The notes beneath the pieces were generated by a model that saw only the letters and a list, made by a program, of their open reading frames with translations, did no database searches and was not told the origin of the DNA. Made by a program: the position numbers and the translations under genes. DNA of 64,000 nt, from positions 1 through 64,000 of IMG/VR virus record IMGVR_UViG_3300028374_000002; one strand, given 5' to 3'. The stretch is from a virus. Below, in pieces: positions 3,104 to 46,578 of the stretch (positions within the stretch are counted from its first letter, which is position 1; the number at the start of each line of letters is the position of its first letter).

Positions 3104-4846
3104 ATGATTATTACAAAAAATGTAGAAATGAAATTAGGTATAAGAAATGCTACTAGGATAATTAGCATGTATGACCTAGACAGTAATTTAAAGCCTGGTG
3201 ATACTGCACTAATACCAGTTAATTTATTATCAAAGTCATCAAATTATAAGATAAAAGTAAGTTGTGATTATTGTGGATTAGAATTATATGTTCCTTATAA
3301 AAGGTATAATAAAAGTACTAGTACTATAAGTAAGTATTCTTGCTCTTCAAAGCAATGCTCTAACCAAAAGATAAAAGAAGTTTGCCAAGCTAAGTATGGT
3401 GTAGATAACCCATTTCAATCAGATGTTATTAAAGATAAGATAAAAAAAACACTAAATGAAAAATATGGAAAAGACCACCCAATGTATGTAGATAAAATAA
3501 AATCTAAGATAAAGGATACATGCTTGAAAAGATATGGTGTTAGTAGCTATACCAAAACTAAAGAATATAAAGAGAAAACTATTAAAACTAATCTAGAAAA
3601 GTATGGTGTTAACTGGCCATTACAAAGTGAAGAAGTAAAAAATAAGGGAATAAAGACTAGTTTGGAAAAGTATGGTGTTAAATATTCACAACAATCATAT
3701 CTTATAAGACAAAAAACAATTAGAACTAATCTAGAAAAGTATGGTGTTAAGTGTAATTTACAATCAGATGATTCTAAAGCCAAGATAAAAAAGACTATTT
3801 TGGAAAAGTATGGCGTTGACAATATAATGGAGAATGATGTGTTTAGAGAAAAATTTAATATAACAAAAGATAATTCATATGTTAGTTATTTATCTGATAA
3901 AATGTCTAGATTTAAATGTGAGAAGGGTCACTATTTTGAAATAAGTTCAGATAATTATATTTCAAGACGAAAGAATAATGTAGATTTATGTACTGTTTGT
4001 AATAGTATAGGAGATTCTAAATCCTTAAAAGAAGAAGAGTTATATAATTTTATAAAAAGTATATATAACGGCAAAGTTGAGCAATCATATAGAGATGGTC
4101 TTGAGATAGATATTTACTTACCAACGCTAAATATAGGATTTGAGTTCAATGGTCTTTATTGGCACTCGGAATCCTACAAAGGAAAGGACTATCATTTAGA
4201 TAAGACTGAACATTTTAAAAATAGAAGAATAAAAATAATACACATTTGGGAAGATGATTGGGTAAATAAGACAGATATCATAAAAAGTCAAATAAATAAT
4301 TGGATTGGGTTAACAAGTAAAAAAATATACGGTAGGAAGTGTTTAGTTAGAGAAATAAGTGATAGCAAAGTAGTTACAAAGTTTTTAGATGAAAATCATA
4401 TACAAGGTAAGGTTAGAAGCAGTTTAAAGCTAGGTTTATATCATATGGATGAATTAGTATCAGTTATGACCTTTAGCCACAATGAAGGACGTAAGAAGAT
4501 GCCTAATAGTGAGTGGAACTTATCTAGGTTCTGTAATAAGTTAGATACAAGTGTTATTGGTGGTGCATCTAAATTATTAAAATATTTTCAAAGAAGTTTT
4601 AAACCAACTAGGATAATTAGTTATGCTGATAAAGATTGGTCAACTGGTGATTTATATTATAATCTAGGCTTTAAACTATCAAACATATCTAGACCAGACT
4701 ATAAATATATCATTAATAATAGAAGAGTTCATAAGTCTAGATTTAGAAAGAATAACCTAAATACTGAATTGTCAGAAAGTCAATATATGAAAAAATCCCA
4801 TATTTTGAAAATATGGGATTGTGGAAAAATTAAGTTTGAGATTTAA
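3104..4846 (+). CDS. Free-standing homing endonuclease, VSR-like (EDxHD type)
   Basis: 580 residues. A DNA-recognition part (about 60-260) carries a Cys-containing module followed by repeated segments of the form LEKYGV...QS..I..KIK.T. A second zinc-type motif (CEKGHYF...LCTVCN) precedes a nuclease domain at about 330-410 with EIDIYLP, GFEFNGLYWHSE, YHLDKTEHF and IIHIWEDDW, the pattern of VSR-fold phage homing endonucleases. The last 150 residues (DENHIQG, ISYADKDWS.GDLYYNLGF) look like a GNAT/Mom-like fold. The gene lies between two leftward genes, against local transcription, as expected of a mobile endonuclease gene. Paralogues are at 6458 and 21441. Confidence 0.8.
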   Translation: MIITKNVEMKLGIRNATRIISMYDLDSNLKPGDTALIPVNLLSKSSNYKIKVSCDYCGLELYVPYKRYNKSTSTISKYSCSSKQCSNQKIKEVCQAKYGVDNPFQSDVIKDKIKKTLNEKYGKDHPMYVDKIKSKIKDTCLKRYGVSSYTKTKEYKEKTIKTNLEKYGVNWPLQSEEVKNKGIKTSLEKYGVKYSQQSYLIRQKTIRTNLEKYGVKCNLQSDDSKAKIKKTILEKYGVDNIMENDVFREKFNITKDNSYVSYLSDKMSRFKCEKGHYFEISSDNYISRRKNNVDLCTVCNSIGDSKSLKEEELYNFIKSIYNGKVEQSYRDGLEIDIYLPTLNIGFEFNGLYWHSESYKGKDYHLDKTEHFKNRRIKIIHIWEDDWVNKTDIIKSQINNWIGLTSKKIYGRKCLVREISDSKVVTKFLDENHIQGKVRSSLKLGLYHMDELVSVMTFSHNEGRKKMPNSEWNLSRFCNKLDTSVIGGASKLLKYFQRSFKPTRIISYADKDWSTGDLYYNLGFKLSNISRPDYKYIINNRRVHKSRFRKNNLNTELSESQYMKKSHILKIWDCGKIKFEI

Positions 4847-6306
4847 TCATGATTTGGATCAATAATTATTTGCTTAACCTTACTATTACTACTTGTAATA
4901 GGAACTTCAACACCAACTGATATCATCAGAATCCTACCTCTTATTTTTGATAGGTCAAGGCTATCACAGTAACCATCGGTTAATACAACTGTATTGTATT
5001 GATTGAATTCATTTACTACATAATCGATTGCTGGTTGTAGCATTGTACCACCTAAACCCTTGATACATATTGTTTCCAATGCTTTTTTGCTTTTTATATT
5101 CTTGACCCATTTTACTTCGGTATCTGCCTCAATCAAATTAACCTCAATATCATTTCTATATATGAAAGATAAGACCTTTTCAAATGTACCACCCATAGAA
5201 CCAGAGGTATCTAGTATACAATTAATTTTAGAACTTACTTTTTTATGACCTTTCAAGCCCTTGATACCTCTTCTATTAGCACGTGTAATAGTCTTTTGTT
5301 TGTTAGTACCAAATATAACATTAGAAATAGATCTTTTTATCTCTCTAAGATAATCCTTTCTTTTCTTACGAAGCTTTCCAAGTGTTTGTTCAATATCACC
5401 ACCTGATAATCCACGAGCTGCTAATCTGTCCATAACATCTTTGACCATTCCCTCTCTCATTTCTTGGGGAACTTCATCTTCAATATGTTTATCTAAGTAC
5501 TCTCCATCACCATTCTCCATATCTTGGAAAATTTGTTCTTTAGACCATGTATCAACAGTACTTCCACTTGAAGAATTTTTACCATAAGGTCCATAAGAAG
5601 GCTTACCTTTAGAATCTTTCCCCTCACCATTACTGTTTCCACTACCTTCACAGTCTGGACAGTCATCTGATTCACTCTTGCCTTCACCATCACCACTTTG
5701 TGGATCACCATCTTTGCCTTCTTCTTCACTCTTATCACCATCACCACTTTCACCACCATCTTCGTCTTTTTTACCAGACCCACCACAAGACTTACACTCT
5801 GATTCTTGTTTCTCTTTCAACCATTTGTCCTTCTCATCTTGCATCCATTCATACAAGTGTTCAAAGATTAGTTCACCATCATATTCTTTAGGTACAAAAA
5901 GTGCCATGTTCTTACCATCACTAGATTTTGGTATCTCAACAAAAGAGTGAGATATATCATCCCATATAATATGGTTGATAATCATATCTTGTACAATATT
6001 CGATAACTTGTGATCAAAATTCCCAGTAACTGTTCTTTTTGGGTGATCAAATAGTAAGTGAAAATCCTCATGGAGAATAATAAAGTTCACTTCTTTTTGT
6101 GACATATCTTGTAGAAACTTAGGAGAGTAGAAAAAATTCATTCCTCTAGATGTTACATTAACTGCACATGTTCCTATTGAATCACGCTCTGTGAAATTGA
6201 CTTGAAGGTTAAACTCACCGTAGTATGGGAGGTTAACCTTCGTGTCGATTAACATTGTTTGCACTCCGTCTACAATTTTTTCGTGAATGTTTTTGTTGAA
6301 TATCAT
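4843..6306 (-). CDS. Metallopeptidase-like / VWA-like protein (DUF2201 type)
   Basis: 487 residues. The N-terminal domain has an HExxH zinc-peptidase motif (HEDFH, residues 79-83, followed by FDHP). A linker at about 165-245 is very rich in Gly, Ser, Asp and Lys and holds two CxxCxGSG-like pairs (CKSCGGSG, CPDCEGSG). The C-terminal domain has the VWA metal site motif DTSGSMGG, a later TDGY and a Thr in GLGGTML. This N-peptidase plus C-VWA layout is that of the DUF2201 family; in bacteria such genes often pair with a MoxR-like AAA ATPase, but none is nearby. The substrate is unknown. A good Bacteroidota promoter precedes it. Confidence 0.78.
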   Translation of the reverse strand: MIFNKNIHEKIVDGVQTMLIDTKVNLPYYGEFNLQVNFTERDSIGTCAVNVTSRGMNFFYSPKFLQDMSQKEVNFIILHEDFHLLFDHPKRTVTGNFDHKLSNIVQDMIINHIIWDDISHSFVEIPKSSDGKNMALFVPKEYDGELIFEHLYEWMQDEKDKWLKEKQESECKSCGGSGKKDEDGGESGDGDKSEEEGKDGDPQSGDGEGKSESDDCPDCEGSGNSNGEGKDSKGKPSYGPYGKNSSSGSTVDTWSKEQIFQDMENGDGEYLDKHIEDEVPQEMREGMVKDVMDRLAARGLSGGDIEQTLGKLRKKRKDYLREIKRSISNVIFGTNKQKTITRANRRGIKGLKGHKKVSSKINCILDTSGSMGGTFEKVLSFIYRNDIEVNLIEADTEVKWVKNIKSKKALETICIKGLGGTMLQPAIDYVVNEFNQYNTVVLTDGYCDSLDLSKIRGRILMISVGVEVPITSSNSKVKQIIIDPNHD

Positions 6307-6329
6307 ATTTTGGATTTTTTATTACAATA

Positions 6330-6359
6330 CAAATGTAAGGCTTTTTATTAGAATACAAA
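6330..6359 (-). promoter_or_regulatory. Bacteroidota-type promoter (TTTG - 18 nt - TACATTTG)
   Basis: Minus strand: -33 TTTG at 6359-6356, 18-base spacer, -7 box TACATTTG at 6337-6330, then 23 bases to the ATG at 6306. This fits the TTTG/TAnnTTTG consensus of the Bacteroidota primary sigma factor apart from a spacer one base short of the usual range. It is the clearest such promoter in the window and suggests transcription by unmodified host polymerase. Confidence 0.55.
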
Positions 6360-6457
6360 TGCCTTTCTCTGTAAAATATATATTTATTTCAAAACCTACC
6401 AAACTATGGTGGGTTTATTGATATAATATATATATTAATGAATGTACCACACATATT

Positions 6458-8074
6458 ATGCTATTAGATAAATATATCGAAGTAAAGATTTCTAAGAAGA
6501 ATATAGAACACTTTTCAAAGTATTATAAAAATATATCTATCAAAGATGTATTAAGGATAAGGACTGATGAACTCCAGAGTGGTTCTAATAAGAGGATTAA
6601 AGTTAAATGTGATAATTGTTATATTGAAAACTTTATAAAATACCAGTCTTATTTTAAGAACATAACTTCATCTGAAAAACATCCAATATACACATGTGTT
6701 AAGTGTTCTCATATTAAAATAAAGTCTACTAACATGGATAAGTATGGTGTTGAATATTATTCTAAAACTGATGAGTATAATGCTAGGTTTAGAAAAACTA
6801 TGAAACAAAGGTATAGTGTGGAATACCCAACACAATCTAAAGAAATTTTAAATAAAATTAAAAATACTAACTTACAAAGATATGGTGTTGATAACATATT
6901 TAAAGATAATTCTTATATAAAAGATAAATTCATAGAAAAGTACGGTGTTGACCATCCTAGTAAAGTAAAAGAAATATATGATAGGGTGAAAGAAAGTAAT
7001 TTAAGGTCAACAGGATATGAATCCCCATTATCATCACCAGAAATAAGGGAGCGAATCAAAGAAACAAATAAGAGACTTTATGGTTCTAATACACCAAGTC
7101 AGTCTAATAGTGATAAAGGCATATCCTTGATGTCTTGTAAGAAGAATCATATATATGAGATAAGTTCGTCAAATTATCATAGTAGAAAACGTGATTGTGT
7201 ACCATTGTGTACTGTATGTAATCCTATCAGTTCTACATCTTCTATAAAGGAAAAGGAATTATATGAGTTCATATCTAGTATGTATAATGGTAGTATTATA
7301 AGGTCATTCAAAGATAAAAGAATAGAGATAGATGTATACATACCAGAATTAAAAATAGGCTTTGAATTTAATGGTCTATATTGGCATTCCGAAGAATATA
7401 AAGATAGAGATTATCATATTAAAAAAACAGAGTATTTTAAGGATAAGGGAATAAGGATTATACACATTTGGGAAGATGATTGGGTAAATAAGACAGATAT
7501 CATAAAAAGTCAAGTAAAAAATTGGCTAGGTTTAACAACACATAAGATATATGCCAGAAAATATATTATTAAGGAGGTTAGTGATATAAAAATTATCAGA
7601 AAGTTTCTTGATGAAAACCACATACAAGGCTTTGTAACATCAAGTAAGAAAATAGGATTATATTATGATGATGTGTTAGTATCTATTATGGTTTTTGACC
7701 ATAGAGAAGGTAGGGATAAAATGAATGATAACCAGTGGAACTTGTCTAGGTTTTGTAATAATAAGAATACTGTAGTCATTGGTGGTGCTTCTAGGCTTCT
7801 TAAATATTTTATGAAGTCTTATAGTCCTGTTAGAATTATAAGCTATGCTGATAGAGACTGGTCAGAGGGCAATGTGTACTATAATTTGGGGTTTGATATG
7901 GTAAAATCTAGTAAACCAGATTATAAATATATTGTCAATAGTAAAAGAGTGCATAAGTCAAGATATAAAAAATCTAATTTAGAAACAAATCTGACTGAGA
8001 ATGATTATATGAAAGCTAATAGTTACAAGAAAATATGGGACTGTGGGAAGATTAAGTTTGAAATTATTATATAG
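6458..8074 (+). CDS. Free-standing homing endonuclease, VSR-like (paralogue of 3104-4846)
   Basis: 538 residues with the same order as the gene at 3104: Cys module (CDNC...CVKC), KYGV...QS repeats, second Cys module, VSR-like nuclease (EIDVYIP, GFEFNGLYWHSE, YHIKKTEYF, IIHIWEDDW) and the GNAT/Mom-like C-terminal domain. About 50 bases around the IHIWEDDW codons are identical to the 3104 gene although the recognition parts differ, which points to recent gene conversion or selection on the core. It is preceded by an AATATATAT element and lies between two leftward genes. Confidence 0.8.
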   Translation: MLLDKYIEVKISKKNIEHFSKYYKNISIKDVLRIRTDELQSGSNKRIKVKCDNCYIENFIKYQSYFKNITSSEKHPIYTCVKCSHIKIKSTNMDKYGVEYYSKTDEYNARFRKTMKQRYSVEYPTQSKEILNKIKNTNLQRYGVDNIFKDNSYIKDKFIEKYGVDHPSKVKEIYDRVKESNLRSTGYESPLSSPEIRERIKETNKRLYGSNTPSQSNSDKGISLMSCKKNHIYEISSSNYHSRKRDCVPLCTVCNPISSTSSIKEKELYEFISSMYNGSIIRSFKDKRIEIDVYIPELKIGFEFNGLYWHSEEYKDRDYHIKKTEYFKDKGIRIIHIWEDDWVNKTDIIKSQVKNWLGLTTHKIYARKYIIKEVSDIKIIRKFLDENHIQGFVTSSKKIGLYYDDVLVSIMVFDHREGRDKMNDNQWNLSRFCNNKNTVVIGGASRLLKYFMKSYSPVRIISYADRDWSEGNVYYNLGFDMVKSSKPDYKYIVNSKRVHKSRYKKSNLETNLTENDYMKANSYKKIWDCGKIKFEIII

Positions 8075-12646: not shown

Positions 12647-12670
12647 AATATTTTATAGATATTTATTAGT

Positions 12671-12783
12671 TGGCTTATCAGGATTCGAACTTGAATTTTC
12701 TGCTCCAAGATTTTGTAGGAACATTTTTTATCTTTCGATGAATTGTAAAAAATGCAGACGTGTTACCATTACACCATAAGCCA
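12671..12783 (-). tRNA. tRNA-Gln(UUG)-like gene with a 43-nt insertion in the anticodon loop
   Basis: Minus strand. A perfect 7-bp acceptor stem (TGGCTTA/TAAGCCA, with the U1-A72 pair usual in tRNA-Gln), D arm GTGTAATGGTAACAC, anticodon stem TCTGC/GCAGA, T arm with loop TTCGAAT and one A-C mismatch, discriminator A, no encoded CCA. Between the anticodon-stem strands lie 50 bases instead of 7. Removing 43 bases after two, three or four loop bases leaves loop ATTTGGA with anticodon TTG in every case. The extra segment holds a 9-bp perfect hairpin (CATTTTTTA/TAAAAAATG). Either a tRNA with a tiny intron or a disrupted tRNA; too small for a self-splicing intron. Confidence 0.7.
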
Positions 12784-20014: not shown

Positions 20015-21361
20015 CTAATTGATTTTAAAATTTCTTTTAAGATTTGTCAAATCAGTAAGGTACATATCCTTGGGTAATGTTTTTTTTATAACATCTATCT
20101 CTTCTTTCTTAACTTTTAAATCTGCTTTAAGTTTATCAAATAATTCCTTAGTTAATGAATATATAGGCATTCTAAGTAAATAATCATATGTATTATCTAT
20201 CTTATCTAATCCAAGCTTCCCAATACTAATTATTATATCACTTTTTTTAACATTATTTACTTTTAACTTATTGTCTAGTATAGCTTTTATAAACTTAGCC
20301 CTATTACTTAATACCTTATATTCCCTTTCTAACTTACTAATTAGATATTCTTTCCTTTTGTCATAGTATTTCAGTCTAAAGTCTACAAAATATTTAACTA
20401 TTTCCTTTGAAGATTCAAATAACTTAAGTTCACCATTTTCATCTAATGTTGAGAATATCTCATGGGATGTTTCTTCTAATTTAAGTAATTTTACTATATT
20501 TTCATCTGTTAATTTTTTTAGTTCACTTCTTTTGAATTTAATAGTATAGTCTACATTATCTTTACAATTATCTTCATAAGAAATTATCTCTTTCTTATCA
20601 CATAATTTGTCCAATAAAATTTCATATTTTTCATAAGTCATAGATATAGGAAGTTCATACACTTTAATTGTAGTTGTGTTAATCCTTTCAAAACATCCCC
20701 TAATGTACCACTTCTTATTATTTTCCTCATCTTGTCTATATGATCCGATAAAATTATTTAAAGCAGGTGGAATTTCTTTTATCCCCTTTCCATTCAACAA
20801 TTTCTGACAAGCTGTTATTATATCAACCATATCTCTGTTGAGAATATTTGAAGCAAATCCTACTGCAATACCCTTAGAACCGTTTATGAGAACAGTTGGT
20901 ACAATGGGTAAAAAATATTCTGGTTCTATTATCTCACCCTCTTCTTCCTTATGTTTTAATAATTCGAAGTCCTTGTATATAAGTCTAAAATTATTAGATA
21001 GTTTAGTACCAATATACCTTGATGCACCTGCTTTTGGTGATCTTAAACTACCAAATTGTCCATCCTCATCTAATAGTGATGCATTGTTTTTGAAATGTTG
21101 TGCTACTGTTATTATTGAATTTTCTAGACTTTGATTTCCATGGTGGTAAAAAGCATCTGATGCTATCTTACCAGCAAGTTGAAATACCTTTAAAGATTTT
21201 TCATTACCAGTTTTCCATATTTGGTTAGATACGTGTAAAATCTTTCTATGGCTAGGTTTGAAGCCGTCTATAACCGAAGGAATAGCTCTATTTTCTATGG
21301 TATACATAGCAAATTCTTTATATTCATCTGATAAAAATTCGGTAATACTCTTCTTTTGCAT
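20015..21361 (-). CDS. 52: Type II DNA topoisomerase, medium subunit (T4 gp52-like)
   Basis: 448 residues, the size of T4 gp52. It is the DNA breakage-reunion subunit equivalent to GyrA/ParC: SVIDGFKPSHRKIL, the AQHF...LLDEDGQFGSLRSP segment, and catalytic Tyr116 in GASRYIGTK, followed by the tower/coiled-coil region rich in Lys and ending in a basic tail. It works with the large ATPase subunit encoded at 24081/27189 to manage supercoiling during phage replication. The two subunits are divergently placed and separated by a homing endonuclease and one unknown gene. Confidence 0.93.
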   Translation of the reverse strand: MQKKSITEFLSDEYKEFAMYTIENRAIPSVIDGFKPSHRKILHVSNQIWKTGNEKSLKVFQLAGKIASDAFYHHGNQSLENSIITVAQHFKNNASLLDEDGQFGSLRSPKAGASRYIGTKLSNNFRLIYKDFELLKHKEEEGEIIEPEYFLPIVPTVLINGSKGIAVGFASNILNRDMVDIITACQKLLNGKGIKEIPPALNNFIGSYRQDEENNKKWYIRGCFERINTTTIKVYELPISMTYEKYEILLDKLCDKKEIISYEDNCKDNVDYTIKFKRSELKKLTDENIVKLLKLEETSHEIFSTLDENGELKLFESSKEIVKYFVDFRLKYYDKRKEYLISKLEREYKVLSNRAKFIKAILDNKLKVNNVKKSDIIISIGKLGLDKIDNTYDYLLRMPIYSLTKELFDKLKADLKVKKEEIDVIKKTLPKDMYLTDLTNLKRNFKIN

Positions 21362-21440: not shown

Positions 21441-23273
21441 ATGATTGTTTCAAGCAGTGTGAAAATAAAAGTTAATCCTAACATAAGAAAATATTATATA
21501 AGCAAAGGGTATAGCTGTGTAAATAACGAGATTATTGATGTAAAAACTATTGACTTATCGCCTGGTTCTAATCTACGAATTGATACAGAATGTGATAATT
21601 GCAAAGCTAAAAGTTCATCCATTTTTAACAAGTATTATAAATATACCAACTCCTTCAAAGATAATTACTATTGTAAAAAATGTAAGAAATGTAATTCCGA
21701 AAAAGCTAAAAAAACTAGGAAGGAAAGATATGGGGATGAGAACTACACTAATATAGAAAAGGGGAGAGAAACCAAGAAGAAGAAATATGGCAATGAGAAT
21801 TATAATAATAGAGAAAAGGCTAAGAAAACCACAAATATTAAGTATGGTGTTAATAATGTATCTGAAATAGATTTTGTTAAACAAAAGAAAATAAAAACAT
21901 CACTAGAAAAGTATGGTGTTAACAATCCATTCCAGTCAAGTATAATAAAAGCTAAGATAGAGAATACTTGTACCATCAAATACGGTACTAAGCACTACTT
22001 AACATCCGATGACTATAAAGCTAAATATGAAACGTACTGTGATTCAATGGGTGTTAAGCATTATTCACAAAGTGATGAATTTAAAGATAAGTTCAAAGAA
22101 ACTTGTTTGGTGAAATGGGGGTTTAGTACTAATCTATTAAATGATGAGATAAAGAATAAGATAAAGAAGACAAATATTGAAAGATATGGTGTTGATCACT
22201 GTATGAAGAATAAGGATATTTCTTTACTAAACTCTAAATCTATGATAGAAAATAGGAGTGATTACTTTGATAGCCTAGGATATACATATTTAAGTTATGA
22301 CTTTGATAAGAAACTATACGAATTAAAAAACAAGGACTGTGGTCATAAGTTTCAAATAAATTATGATTTATTCAGAAGTAGAATCAAGTACAGTAATAAT
22401 AGCTGTCTTAAATGCTATCCTAAAAAAGACTTGGTATCAATAAAAGAAAAAGAAATAGTTAATTGGTTAAAAGAATTTGATATAGAAATTATAGAGAATA
22501 CTAGAAATATCATAAGTCCATTAGAACTAGATATATATTTACCAAAACATAACATAGCTATTGAATTCAACGGTCTTTACTACCATTCTGATAAATTTAA
22601 AAAAAAGAAATATCATATAAATAAGACTGATAGATGTGAAGTAGAAGGTATTGAGTTAATTCATGTATGGGAGGATGATTGGATAAACAATAAAGATATA
22701 ATAAAGTCTATAATATTAAATAGACTAGGATTTATAAAAGATAAAGTATTTGGCAGAAAATGTGAGATAAAAGAAGTTAGTGTAAAAGATAGTAGAAATT
22801 TTCTTGATAGTAATCATATACAAGGATATACTAACTCATCAATTAAGATAGGCTTATATCATAATGAGGATTTGGTAAGTCTTATGACGTTTGGATCTAG
22901 ACGAACGAATAATAAAAAAGAATATGAACTTATTAGATTTTGTAATAAATTAAATCTAAGTGTACTAGGTGGTTCTTCAAAATTGTTCAAACATTTTGTT
23001 AAACACTATAAGACATCAAGAGTAATATCATATTCTGACAAATCTATGTTTAATGGGAATATGTATAAAGTGTTGGGCTTTAAAGATGATGGGAACACAT
23101 CCCTTAATTATTATTGGACAGATTTATCAAAAAGATATCACAGATTTAATTTTAATAAGAAAAAGCTGGTAGAGAAAGGCTATGATGAATCACTTACAGA
23201 AAATGAGATAATGAAAAGCATTGGTTTTTACAAGATCTGGTCATGTGGACAAATTAGATGGATTATTGAGTAG
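21441..23273 (+). CDS. Free-standing homing endonuclease, VSR-like (third paralogue)
   Basis: 610 residues. Cys modules near 50-80 (CDNC, CKKCKKC), an extended array of KYG(V/N)-containing repeats (to about 270), a third Cys pair (CGHKF...CLKCYP), then the nuclease core LELDIYLP, AIEFNGLYYHSD, YHINKTDRC, LIHVWEDDW, and the GNAT/Mom-like end (NHIQGYT, VISYSDKS, YKVLGF). It is more distant from the other two than they are from each other. It sits between the two topoisomerase genes, a common target neighbourhood for phage mobile endonucleases. Confidence 0.8.
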   Translation: MIVSSSVKIKVNPNIRKYYISKGYSCVNNEIIDVKTIDLSPGSNLRIDTECDNCKAKSSSIFNKYYKYTNSFKDNYYCKKCKKCNSEKAKKTRKERYGDENYTNIEKGRETKKKKYGNENYNNREKAKKTTNIKYGVNNVSEIDFVKQKKIKTSLEKYGVNNPFQSSIIKAKIENTCTIKYGTKHYLTSDDYKAKYETYCDSMGVKHYSQSDEFKDKFKETCLVKWGFSTNLLNDEIKNKIKKTNIERYGVDHCMKNKDISLLNSKSMIENRSDYFDSLGYTYLSYDFDKKLYELKNKDCGHKFQINYDLFRSRIKYSNNSCLKCYPKKDLVSIKEKEIVNWLKEFDIEIIENTRNIISPLELDIYLPKHNIAIEFNGLYYHSDKFKKKKYHINKTDRCEVEGIELIHVWEDDWINNKDIIKSIILNRLGFIKDKVFGRKCEIKEVSVKDSRNFLDSNHIQGYTNSSIKIGLYHNEDLVSLMTFGSRRTNNKKEYELIRFCNKLNLSVLGGSSKLFKHFVKHYKTSRVISYSDKSMFNGNMYKVLGFKDDGNTSLNYYWTDLSKRYHRFNFNKKKLVEKGYDESLTENEIMKSIGFYKIWSCGQIRWIIE

Positions 23274-24080: not shown

Positions 24081-25823
24081 ATGAGTAAAAAAATAGAAGA
24101 CAAGTACAAAATATTATCACATATTGATCATATCTTATTAAGACCACAAACTTATGTTGGATCAAATAAAATAAGAAATGAGCAAAGGTGGGTTGTTGAT
24201 AAAGATAAAATGACTAAAAGTGAGGTATCATATATCCCATCTTTTATTAAAATATTTGATGAAGTAATTACCAATTCTATTGATGAAAGCAAGAGAAATA
24301 AAAAGTTAAATAGAATTGATGTTTGTGTAGATAAAGATAAAATATCTATCAAGGATAATGGTGGTATACCAGTTGTCAAACATAAGGAGTATAAGATATA
24401 TGTTCCAGAGGTTATATTCGGAAATCTTATGTCTGGTACGAATTATGATGATGCAGAGGAAAGAACAGTAGCTGGAGTTAATGGGTTAGGCTCAAAACTA
24501 ACAAACATATTTTCAACTGAATTTAGTGTATCAACTTGTGATGGTAAGAAGTGCTTCAAACAAAAATTCGAAAATAATATGAGAGTTAAGGGAAAGCCTT
24601 CTGTTAAAAAAGGAATTAAAAAACATACACATATAGAATTTAAGCCTGACCTTGAGAAATTTGGGATGAAAGATATAAACAATGACCATTATAAAATAAT
24701 AGAAAAAAGGGTTTATGATTTAGCAGCATGTAATCCAAAAGTTAAAATATATTTCAATGGAAAGCAAGTGAAAATAGACTCTTTTGAAAATTATATAAGT
24801 CTATATGTGTCAGATTATCTATATGAGTCTAATAAAGGGAATGAGTGGGAGGTTGGTGTTGCTTTGTCAGAAGATGGATTTGAACAAATATCATTTGTGA
24901 ACTCAACTGAAACTTATGATGGTGGTACACATGTTGATTATGTGATGAACCAGATAATCACAGAGTTAAGAGCTTATTTTAATAAAAAGCACAAATTTGA
25001 TGTCAAGCCATCAGAACTTAAGCAACACATGTTATTATTATTAAATTGCACAATAATTAACCCATCTTTTTCTTCACAGACAAAGGAAAAGTTGATAACA
25101 GAGGTCAAAGATTTTGGACAAGAGTTTGTAGTTTCTAAGAAATTGATAAACTCTATTTTAAAATCAGAAATAGTTAACTCAGTACTAGATTGGATAGAAC
25201 AAAAGAAACAAGCTGATGAGAATAAACTACAAAGGAAAGTAAATAAAAACTTATCTAAAATAAAAGTAGAAAAGCTAATTGACTCTAAAGGTAAAGACCG
25301 TATAAAACATTCTCTTGGACTTTATGAGGGGGATTGTTTAAGTGAGGATACCGATATAAGAGTTATTAGAGATGGTGATATAATAGATGTGAAAATAAAA
25401 GATGCAAATGTTGATGATTTAGTCATAACACATAATAATACATTTTCAAGTATTTATTCTATGACTAAAAAAATAAAGAAAAAATCAATAATAAAAACAA
25501 AGGATATAGAATTAGTATCTAGTAAAGAACATGAGTGGTATGTATATGATACAGAATTAAATGAGTTTTATTTCGAAAAAACAATTAATATAGATAAAAA
25601 TAAACACAAATTAGTTAAGAATTACCTAGCATTCATAGAATCATTATTAGTTATTGTATATTCGGATGGTAGTACTATTAAATTAGATTCGGGTGATGTT
25701 ATAGACACAAATGATAATCATAGCTTAGCGGTATATGATAAGATTGAAAATAAGTTCAAAATGTGTAGGGCAATTGATATAGATATTAGTAAACATCTAC
25801 TAGTTAATATTTTCAGATTGTAA
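24081..25823 (+). CDS. 39: Type II topoisomerase large subunit, N-terminal part fused to N-intein
   Basis: 580 residues. Residues 1-418 are the GHKL ATPase, transducer and start of TOPRIM: FDEVITNSIDES, IKDNGGIPV, the GTNYDD and VNGLGSKLTNIFS ATP-lid region, and QTKEKL. The chain reaches the TOPRIM motif EGD (416-418) and then changes to Cys419, the first residue of an intein (CLSEDTDIRV block A; SSKEHEWYV block B). The extein continues with SA in the separate gene at 27189, restoring EGDSA. The intein half is 162 residues, long for a split N-intein, with a second TNDNHSLAVYD segment that also resembles block B. A stop follows at 25821. Confidence 0.9.
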   Translation: MSKKIEDKYKILSHIDHILLRPQTYVGSNKIRNEQRWVVDKDKMTKSEVSYIPSFIKIFDEVITNSIDESKRNKKLNRIDVCVDKDKISIKDNGGIPVVKHKEYKIYVPEVIFGNLMSGTNYDDAEERTVAGVNGLGSKLTNIFSTEFSVSTCDGKKCFKQKFENNMRVKGKPSVKKGIKKHTHIEFKPDLEKFGMKDINNDHYKIIEKRVYDLAACNPKVKIYFNGKQVKIDSFENYISLYVSDYLYESNKGNEWEVGVALSEDGFEQISFVNSTETYDGGTHVDYVMNQIITELRAYFNKKHKFDVKPSELKQHMLLLLNCTIINPSFSSQTKEKLITEVKDFGQEFVVSKKLINSILKSEIVNSVLDWIEQKKQADENKLQRKVNKNLSKIKVEKLIDSKGKDRIKHSLGLYEGDCLSEDTDIRVIRDGDIIDVKIKDANVDDLVITHNNTFSSIYSMTKKIKKKSIIKTKDIELVSSKEHEWYVYDTELNEFYFEKTINIDKNKHKLVKNYLAFIESLLVIVYSDGSTIKLDSGDVIDTNDNHSLAVYDKIENKFKMCRAIDIDISKHLLVNIFRL

Positions 25824-25882
25824 CCCCTTCGAGACTATACACTTCCCTCGAAAAGGCATATTTTAATATTAATATATATAGT

Positions 25883-27187
25883 ATGGTATTAAAATATGTG
25901 TATAAGTCTAGTATTTATCAAGTCTCTATAAAATCCATAGAGAAATTAGAATCAGGGTTTAAATTTTCAATAAGGAAGAGGTTAGATATATCAATAAATG
26001 ATTATTTGATATATTTAGGATTTAATGTCGAAAGATGTAGAATTTGTAATATAGGAGATGTTCCTATTGTTTTAGACATTAGTATAATAGAAGGATTTGT
26101 AAAAGTAAATGGGTTTAAATATAAAAAGAGTATTTATTGCTATAGTTCTAATAATAAATGTGATGGTATAAAGATGAACTCTAATTCATTTGAGTTTATT
26201 TCCAAGGTCGAAAATATTTCTATTGAAGAAGCCAATATATTATTGAAAGAAAGAAATAGAAGTCCTTTTTATAAAGAAAATTGGGATTCTGATAAAGAAT
26301 ATAAGAATTCACAGTCTAGAAACATGGAATATTTTACAAAAAAATATGGTGAAAATGGTGATGTTAAGTACAAAGAGTATATAGACAAACTAGCATATTC
26401 GAATTCTGTTGAACGGTATATAGACGAGTTTGGTGAAGTGAAAGGAGAGGAGATGTTTAATATCATTTCTAATAAAAAGGATTCGATGTCTTTTGATTTT
26501 TTCTTAAATAAAAATGACAATGATAAAGAATTAGCATTGGTAGACTATAATGAAAGGTTAAAGCATGTAAATAATTCTCTCGATAATTGGATTTTTAAAT
26601 ATGGTTATGACAAGGCTATCGAAAAACATAAATTAAGAGCTAATAATCAAAGGGAAACTTTTGCTAAAAATCCAAATATAAATGAAATACATAAATCAAT
26701 GGGAATTACTATTAGTAATTTATACAATAAATATGGTGATTATGACTTAGCGGTTAATAAATACAAAGACTGGTTAAGTAAAGTAACAGTACCATTTTCA
26801 AGAGCATCAAAGGAATCATTATTAATATTTACTGATGTTATTAAGTGGTGTATAGATAATAAAATTGAACATAATGATATTTATATAGGTGATAAAGATA
26901 AGAATGAATATTTTATAAGAGATGGTAAAAACATTTTCTTCTACGATTTCACAATAAGAAGTAAACAAATAATTATAGAGTATAATGGTGTAATATTCCA
27001 TCCTAAGAACGAGGATTCGAAATGGGTAAATCCATTTAATAGAAGCATAACACCAAGCGAAGCATATAACAAACAGAAAAATAAGATTAATTTAGCCAAA
27101 ACTAATGGATTTTCTATACTAGAAGTATGGTCAGATGGTGATAATAATTATGACAAGTGTATAAATTTTATTAAAAAAAATATTTAA
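25883..27187 (+). CDS. Free-standing homing endonuclease inside the split intein
   Basis: 434 residues. The N-terminal Cys motif (CRICNIGDVP...CYSSNNKC) is followed by repeated helical segments (YTKKYGENGD-type; ERYIDEFGEVKGEE; WIFKYGYDKAIEKH; LYNKYGDYDLAVNK) and a C-terminal VSR-like nuclease: FFYDFTIRSKQIIIEYNGVI, AYNKQKNKINLAKTNGFSIL, EVWSDGD. It has its own ATG behind an AATATATA element and sits exactly between the N- and C-intein genes, the arrangement of fractured phage genes. It probably spreads the split intein by cutting intein-free topoisomerase genes. Confidence 0.82.
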   Translation: MVLKYVYKSSIYQVSIKSIEKLESGFKFSIRKRLDISINDYLIYLGFNVERCRICNIGDVPIVLDISIIEGFVKVNGFKYKKSIYCYSSNNKCDGIKMNSNSFEFISKVENISIEEANILLKERNRSPFYKENWDSDKEYKNSQSRNMEYFTKKYGENGDVKYKEYIDKLAYSNSVERYIDEFGEVKGEEMFNIISNKKDSMSFDFFLNKNDNDKELALVDYNERLKHVNNSLDNWIFKYGYDKAIEKHKLRANNQRETFAKNPNINEIHKSMGITISNLYNKYGDYDLAVNKYKDWLSKVTVPFSRASKESLLIFTDVIKWCIDNKIEHNDIYIGDKDKNEYFIRDGKNIFFYDFTIRSKQIIIEYNGVIFHPKNEDSKWVNPFNRSITPSEAYNKQKNKINLAKTNGFSILEVWSDGDNNYDKCINFIKKNI

Positions 27188-27188
27188 A

Positions 27189-27908
27189 ATGGTAGAGAAT
27201 TTTTTAGAACTAGTAGACATAGAAGATGTAATTCACACAGAAGAATATGTTAACATGGTTGATATAGCTGTTGATGTTGATCAGAGCTTCTTATTAAGTA
27301 ATGGTATTATATCACATAATTCCGCTGTTGGTGCTTTTAGAAAGTATAGAAACACACAGACAATGGGTGCTTTTGCATTAAGGGGGAAGTTTATGAATGT
27401 ATCTGAGGTAAGTAATGCTAAGTTAGTCAAAAATGCGGAGGTAGTTAATATAATGGCAGCAATTGGATTGAAATTAGGACAACCATTAGATATGAAAAAT
27501 ATAAGATATGGAAAAGTTCTTTTGTATGTAGATTCTGACCATGATGGTAATTCTATTGCTAGTCTGTTATTGAATTTCTTTTATACATATTGGCCAGAGA
27601 TGTTTGATAAAAACATGATATATAAAGTTGAAACACCTATAGTAGTTGCTATACCTAGAAACAATAAACTAAAGAAAATTTCTTTGTATAACCAAAAAGA
27701 GTATAAGCTATGGTCTGATAAACATGATTTAAAGAAATTTGATATAAAGTATAAAAAAGGATTAGCTGCTTTAGTGGGGGATGAATACAATGATATTATA
27801 AATAATCCTAGACTTACACTTATAACCAAAGATATTATGGCTGGTGACTCTTTGAATACTTGGTTTGGGAAGGAATCTGATTTGAGAAAAGATGAATTAT
27901 TGGAATAA
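27189..27908 (+). CDS. 39: C-intein fused to C-terminal part of topoisomerase large subunit
   Basis: 239 residues. Residues 1-44 are a C-intein ending in block F/G (YVNMVDIAVDVDQSFLLSNG, then IISHN) with the terminal Asn44, followed by Ser45 as the +1 extein residue. Residues 45-239 continue TOPRIM: SAVGAF, GKFMNVSEV, then YVDSDHDGNSI (DxD metal site) and the end TWFGKESDLRKDELLE usual for this subunit. Joined to residues 1-418 of the 24081 product this gives a 613-residue subunit. It starts two bases after the endonuclease stop. Trans-splicing must occur to rebuild EGDSA, since the active-site acidic residues lie on different chains. Confidence 0.9.
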   Translation: MVENFLELVDIEDVIHTEEYVNMVDIAVDVDQSFLLSNGIISHNSAVGAFRKYRNTQTMGAFALRGKFMNVSEVSNAKLVKNAEVVNIMAAIGLKLGQPLDMKNIRYGKVLLYVDSDHDGNSIASLLLNFFYTYWPEMFDKNMIYKVETPIVVAIPRNNKLKKISLYNQKEYKLWSDKHDLKKFDIKYKKGLAALVGDEYNDIINNPRLTLITKDIMAGDSLNTWFGKESDLRKDELLE

Positions 27909-46427: not shown

Positions 46428-46578
46428 ATCTAGTTAATACTTTATTTTGCCTACTCTATTAAGTTTTCGGCTTCTCTTATTTAGAGTACAAATATAGCAA
46501 TGTTTTTTGGATTACAGAAAGATTACTATATTTTTTATATTCATTTCTGTGTAATTAGATTCATTTGAAGCATTTGTT

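Follow-up and report, generated by a model that had tools for sequence, protein, structure and literature searches.

How can a complete topoisomerase be made when its gene stops inside a catalytic motif? The question is raised by positions 24081-27908 of a 64,000-nucleotide (nt) stretch (positions 1 to 64,000 of IMGVR_UViG_3300028374_000002), referred to below as the window. In this locus, from a virus of bacteria, the topoisomerase II large subunit is encoded in two genes, each with one half of a split intein, and a homing endonuclease gene lies between them. The best explanation of the whole, which we hold with high confidence, is a mobile split-intein cassette in the EGD/SA motif (the slash marks the insertion) of a T4-type topoisomerase II large-subunit gene. 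The two products would associate through their intein halves and trans-splice by the class 1 pathway into one 613-residue subunit, which would then work with a gp52-like subunit. The endonuclease is predicted to cut uninterrupted EGD/SA alleles, with repair copying the whole cassette (homing), and the insert would destroy the cleavage site in its own genome.

Division of the topoisomerase gene at the TOPRIM motif

The first open reading frame (ORF; 24081-25823, 580 residues) encodes topoisomerase residues 1-418 followed by Cys419 and the N-intein, and the third (27189-27908, 239 residues) encodes a C-intein ending in IISHN followed by SAVGAFRKYR. The insertion lies between the D and S codons of the motif, and joining of the exteins gives 418 + 195 = 613 residues with the junction LYEGD/SAVGAFRKYR. 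The phrog_543 profile (topoisomerase II large subunit) matches the first product over residues 2-418 (E = 4e-118) and the third from residue 44 onwards (E = 4e-54); the first match ends, and the second begins, at profile position 445. Pfam DNA_gyraseB is found on the first product, Toprim and TOPRIM_C on the third; the joined product has the GHKL domain, the transducer, and the TOPRIM domain with its acidic triad that characterize a T4-type topoisomerase II large subunit. Of the TOPRIM residues, the first gene encodes the catalytic Glu (in EGD) and the third the acidic residues of DxDxD (DSDHD), so that no single polypeptide holds the complete active site before splicing. The scan of the window against Rfam at gathering thresholds gave no intron match anywhere and no match of any kind in the gap, so that a group I intron or a known RNA element was rejected as its cause.

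A preliminary description of this DNA, made from the letters alone, had read the topoisomerase frame as ending after EGD and running on as an N-intein from Cys419 to a stop, followed by an endonuclease gene and by a third gene that restores EGDSA behind a 44-residue C-intein, with the TOPRIM residues divided over two products. ORFs and profile agree with this reading in each of its structural elements, to the exact coordinate and residue. The intein-free homologues with an intact EGDSA, which it had proposed to look for, exist at 62-68% identity. Most of 80 IMG/VR loci (L numbers) have an uninterrupted large subunit, and so do two huge phages with complete genomes, LR745206 and LR756502 (N half 61-63% identical); the window C-extein is 66-68% identical to intact relatives. 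The intact motif is EGDSA in L002 and L003 and EGMSA in L007-L009. The EGL of L001 was considered as a lost active-site residue and rejected, since intact relatives vary at the same position (EGM, EGL or EGN).

Exactly the same codon is the split point in about 16 distinct phage loci: the window, L001 (LR756500, complete, 462 kb), L010, L011, L012, L018, L021, L033, L086, L098, L100, L102/L104 (long topoisomerases, two subunits in one), L106, L109, L110, L111, L113 and L136/L137/L140. No contiguous intein at EGD/SA was seen in the sample, all inserted loci being split. Bacterial and archaeal genomes gave one weak match only, in a halophilic archaeon, which as far as seen does not belong to the split-topoisomerase family. 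The split state is patchy, with 9-11 changes needed on a 72-row extein tree (a quick version with several long branches) in which the window is closest to intact rows. Inteins are also more alike than the exteins that carry them (79% against 49% identity for L018 and L098, 65% against 46% for the window and L098). Together, these two observations point to horizontal transfer: the cassette moves between divergent exteins.

In the huge phage LR756500 a second split intein, different from that of the large subunit and accompanied by a Vsr-like endonuclease of its own, fractures the gp52-like medium subunit as well (L001, 9667-12389). With both topoisomerase subunits in pieces in this one genome, the complete enzyme would need two trans-splicing events. 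Outside the window, this virus may have a contiguous intein: a weak C-intein-like match (G000:C1:169539-169616, minus strand, E = 0.04) lies inside a 1121-residue open frame.

Intein halves and the endonuclease between them

The N-intein family profile matches the gp41-1 intein (PDB 6riz/6qaz, E = 2.5e-8), and NCBIfam intein_Nterm (TIGR01445) recognizes 11 of 18 family members (best E = 1.4e-7). The window N-intein itself gives no TIGR01445 match, and its assignment follows from those of its family. Cys1 and the block-B His66 are invariant in 18/18 aligned N-inteins, as are the terminal Ser-His-Asn and the +1 Ser in 8/8 aligned C-inteins. An N-terminal nucleophile, a block-B His, a C-terminal His-Asn and a +1 nucleophile, all four of which are found here, represent the standard class 1 splicing chemistry. 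The N-inteins diverge down to 25% identity to that of the window, which as a query on its own found nothing in viral contigs or phage collections because single-sequence similarity is too low; the extein, C-intein and endonuclease alignments succeeded.

In nearly all loci the N-intein is 161-173 residues long, compared with ~100 for a typical split N-intein (PMC11923092). By hhalign, residues ~103-160 and the block-B module before them are homologous (probability 98%, E = 2.3e-13); the two modules score 60.8, where 40 column shuffles reach no more than 12.3. The strand pattern is repeated in the AlphaFold2 model (mean predicted local distance difference test, pLDDT, 85; predicted template modeling score, pTM, 0.60). 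Over its whole fold the model has weak matches only (Hedgehog and inteins, none better than E = 0.0095), which is what half of an intein should give. The N-intein thus holds an extra, tandem-duplicated block-B module; single-module N-inteins of 101-102 residues are seen in L110 and in the split gp52 of L001. For protein engineering, so large and divergent a family would be a source of new natural split inteins whose N fragment, unusually, has three modules.

The two polypeptides might instead act by non-covalent assembly, with the intein halves as inactive relics, like T4 gp39/gp60 or Aeh1 NrdA-a/b. The T4 topoisomerase and the phage 25/Aeh1 enzymes do work as assembled split polypeptides (PMC2988022), and since the T4 enzyme and Aeh1 NrdA manage this without a covalent join, the need for one in our case is a prediction. 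We nevertheless consider relic inteins improbable. Cys1, the block-B His, His-Asn and the +1 Ser are kept among inteins 25-60% identical to that of the window, which argues for selection for splicing; the halves are intact even where the endonuclease is lost (L018, L033); and an unspliced N half would bear 162 extra residues at the TOPRIM active site. An assembly error, a pseudogene or a frameshifted ordinary intein, for which only the broken reading frame itself speaks, deserves practically no credence, as many independent contigs from unrelated metagenomes have the same architecture, as does one complete phage genome of 462 kb, with the catalytic residues conserved in all parts.

The gene between the halves encodes a relative of the 'VSR endonuclease' of Tenacibaculum phage PTm1 (tblastn E = 5e-9). 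Its model (pLDDT 80, pTM only 0.36) points to a Vsr/I-Bth0305I-like catalytic fold: the best Foldseek match is the I-Bth0305I catalytic domain (3r3p, probability 1.00, TM-score 0.63 on the target, with an E of 0.022 that exceeds 0.001), followed by Vsr (1cw0/1vsr), which by sequence is matched at an E of only about 0.4. Eleven family endonucleases share C52, C55, C86 and C93 (Cys4) and a conserved N-terminal module. In L001, L011, L012 and L106 the C-terminal domain is different (phrog_5104/23051), HNH-like by motif only (DH...N-L; Pfam HNH_3 E = 0.22; PHROGs unnamed). The alignment suggests that a shared N-terminal recognition module has been kept and the catalytic domains exchanged.

The endonuclease stop codon (27185-27187) sits 1 nt ahead of the ATG of the C half, and in several relatives the two genes overlap; from this spacing, translation of the C half is probably coupled to the endonuclease gene, which qualifies the earlier wording of an independent gene. 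L018 and L033 have lost all of the nuclease gene but a short stretch of its 3' end, while the topoisomerase is still split and the intein halves are intact; in L109 no gene lies between the halves. Loci without an endonuclease show that the fracture can outlast the parasite. The gene would stay in pieces after decay of the endonuclease because the cassette is seldom lost precisely and the halves would still splice. The window contains four more homing-endonuclease-like genes (3104-8071 and 21441-23273; phrog_3339, 559, 1314), one of which sits between the medium- and large-subunit topoisomerase genes.

An inverted copy of the extein junction

In most loci, and in nearly all of those with an endonuclease gene, the DNA directly 3' of the N-intein stop codon repeats, as reverse complement, the final 8-15 nt of the N-extein. 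This copy matches its own junction at 12/12 positions in L010 and L098, 10/12 in L018, L021, L033, L086 and L100, and 9/12 in L106. Taken together and compared with windows of the same loci, the matches give a combined p of about 1e-14, a value that, like the other p values, overstates independence because the loci share ancestry. No signal was obtained across loci for a direct-orientation copy in the same test. The core pattern CC[CT]TC (the reverse of the Glu-Gly codons) follows the N-intein stop in 15/19 loci, compared with 3/268 cases for other ORF stops. A copy is found independently in an unrelated gene, the split gp52 of L001, where AGTCTTCATGCTAATAAAAAGCTT agrees with the reverse complement of the extein, AGTCACCATGATGATAAAAAGCTT, at 19/24 nt. 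The copy is absent in L109, which has no endonuclease gene between the halves; the score is at background in the non-topoisomerase inteins L112, L116, L117 and L119, and by eye the element is not seen in split PolB and UvsX genes with other endonucleases. In L136 (1150-1225) and L140 (3874-3950) a second, direct-orientation copy produces a palindrome around an AT-rich spacer, ahead of the endonuclease gene.

A homing-site-like sequence upstream of the endonuclease gene is thus present family-wide, the window on its own being not significant. By analogy with T4 I-TevI, which limits its own expression, the copy may be an operator: the endonuclease would bind there by its recognition domain and so hold down its own synthesis. 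We favor this role only tentatively. More speculative still is the general form of the proposal, in which the cassettes carry a conserved cis-element through which the endonuclease represses its own gene with its target-finding domain, recognition being fixed and the catalytic domains (Vsr-like or HNH-like) exchanged, so that control and specificity would travel together across genes and phages. The inverted half-site offers a testable hypothesis for how such parasites restrain their own endonuclease.

With less likelihood, the copy is a passive scar of the first entry of the endonuclease gene into the split intein, e.g. from repair that duplicated the target in reverse. Its persistence in the endonuclease-less L018 and L033 (10/12 in each) would fit a scar, yet a non-coding scar of 10-24 nt should have decayed among inteins down to about 30-60% identity, and the copy recurs in a different gene with a different endonuclease (gp52 of L001). 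Somewhat less likely again is a role as RNA, in which the copy would pair with the extein junction ~490 nt upstream in the same mRNA and affect stability or translation of the cassette. Such pairing could reach 12/12 Watson-Crick pairs in L010 and L098, and copies fit their own extein better than those of other loci (p = 0.003 overall, 0.048 within the FEGD group). The window, L001, L110 and L140, however, pair poorly with their own extein and yet keep the reverse complement of the E-G codons, and allowing G-U pairs adds no power. A local RNA hairpin as the general role was rejected, the folding z-scores being near zero in most loci, with only L140 clearly stable (z = -3.3 against shuffles).

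Several points weigh against the operator and, more broadly, against the cassette account to which it belongs. In the window the copy (CCCCTTCGAG, reverse complement CTCGAAGGGG, ~50 bp ahead of the endonuclease start) is weak, with 7/12 nt and p = 0.28, and is accepted by position only. The pattern CC[CT]TC was picked after inspection of the data. An operator alone does not require the copies in L018 and L033, unless their endonuclease was lost recently. Block B of the window N-intein reads SSKEH, a Ser variant of TxxH, and the long branches of the quick extein tree loosen the count of changes. Splicing, endonuclease cleavage and operator binding are all predicted from sequence.

The extra N-intein module, the inverted junction copy, the exchange of catalytic domains and the endonuclease-less split forms go beyond the preliminary description. 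Coordinates are collected in Table 1. Elsewhere in the window, a 114-nt tRNA (12670-12783, minus strand; Rfam, 50.6 bits), missed by ARAGORN, appears to have an insert of ~40 nt in the anticodon arm, and a DUF805b cis-regulatory RNA motif (RF02914, 39.4 bits) is found at 46448-46480 (minus strand).

Table 1. Features of the split topoisomerase locus and the partner subunit gene (positions in the window).
Feature	Position	Strand	Basis
N-extein, topoisomerase II large subunit residues 1-418 (GHKL ATPase, transducer, start of TOPRIM), ends LYEGD	24081-25334	+	phrog_543, Pfam DNA_gyraseB, alignment with intact relatives
N-intein, 162 residues, Cys1 = codon 419; stop codon 25821-25823	25335-25820	+	family profile against gp41-1, TIGR01445 in 11/18 members, invariant C1 and H66
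Extra C-terminal N-intein module, tandem duplicate of the preceding block-B module	25641-25814	+	hhalign; strand repeat in AlphaFold2 model
Inverted partial copy of the N-extein junction, candidate endonuclease operator	25824-25833	-	position shared with 10-12/12 matches in 7 relatives; weak in the window
Homing endonuclease gene, 434 residues: N-terminal Cys4 module and predicted C-terminal EDxHD/Vsr-like nuclease domain	25883-27187	+	tblastn, Foldseek, invariant Cys
C-intein, 44 residues, ends GIISHN	27189-27320	+	8-sequence C-intein alignment
C-extein: remaining TOPRIM (SA..., DSDHD) and C-terminal part, 195 residues plus stop	27321-27908	+	phrog_543, Toprim, TOPRIM_C, intact relatives
gp52-like topoisomerase II medium subunit, partner subunit, intact in the window	20015-21361	-	Pfam DNA_topoisoIV (E = 1.4e-87), phrog_551 (E = 5e-143)

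Comparison with known split genes and inteins

The site EGD/SA(G) is also the insertion site of cyanobacterial GyrB inteins (e.g. Ssp GyrB), in the homologous TOPRIM motif. Those inteins are contiguous and reside in bacterial gyrase; we know of no natural split forms at the GyrB site. The gp41-1 split intein, the sequence relative of the N-intein family (6riz, as above), differs in having no second block-B module. In T4 the topoisomerase large subunit is also split, into genes 39 and 60, by insertion of the mob homing endonuclease (PMC2988022), but at another site, with no intein and no splicing.

Our literature search on topoisomerase large subunits, inteins and phages returned only PMC2988022, in which such a split is not described; the arrangement also has features absent from the papers that could be covered. 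As most subscription papers lie outside that search, the host gene is provisionally regarded as new among split-intein fractured phage genes, the general kind being already known.

For the inverted copy, the closest parallel is the I-TevI operator, located upstream of the endonuclease ORF, with 15/20 nt identical to the homing site, at which binding represses transcription of the endonuclease's own gene (PMC2988022). Both are partial homing-site copies upstream of an endonuclease gene, and in the present loci the copy tracks the target. The I-TevI operator lies in a group I intron (T4 td), whereas our copy is inverted and a candidate operator only.

The split PolB genes of Aeromonas phages Aes509/Aes123 and Tenacibaculum phage PTm1 likewise have a split intein with a 'VSR endonuclease' gene between the halves (the Aes N-intein has 120 residues; PMC11923092). 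They differ in the gene, and no inverted copy is visible by eye after the N-intein stop.

The general architecture, as the preliminary description had noted, is that of the fractured phage genes with split inteins and EDxHD/Vsr-like endonucleases of Dassa et al. 2009, as later papers describe them (PMC12350094, PMC11923092, PMC7090010). In those accounts, as here, an N-extein/N-intein gene, a free endonuclease gene of this type and a C-intein/C-extein gene together encode a phage enzyme of DNA metabolism. Compared with the genes so described, the present loci differ in the 162-residue N-intein with its extra module, in the inverted junction copy and in the likely exchange of endonuclease catalytic domains. 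They differ also in the host gene, the topoisomerase II large subunit interrupted at EGD/SA, by which a central replication enzyme, split at its catalytic TOPRIM motif, joins the genes held in pieces by split inteins.

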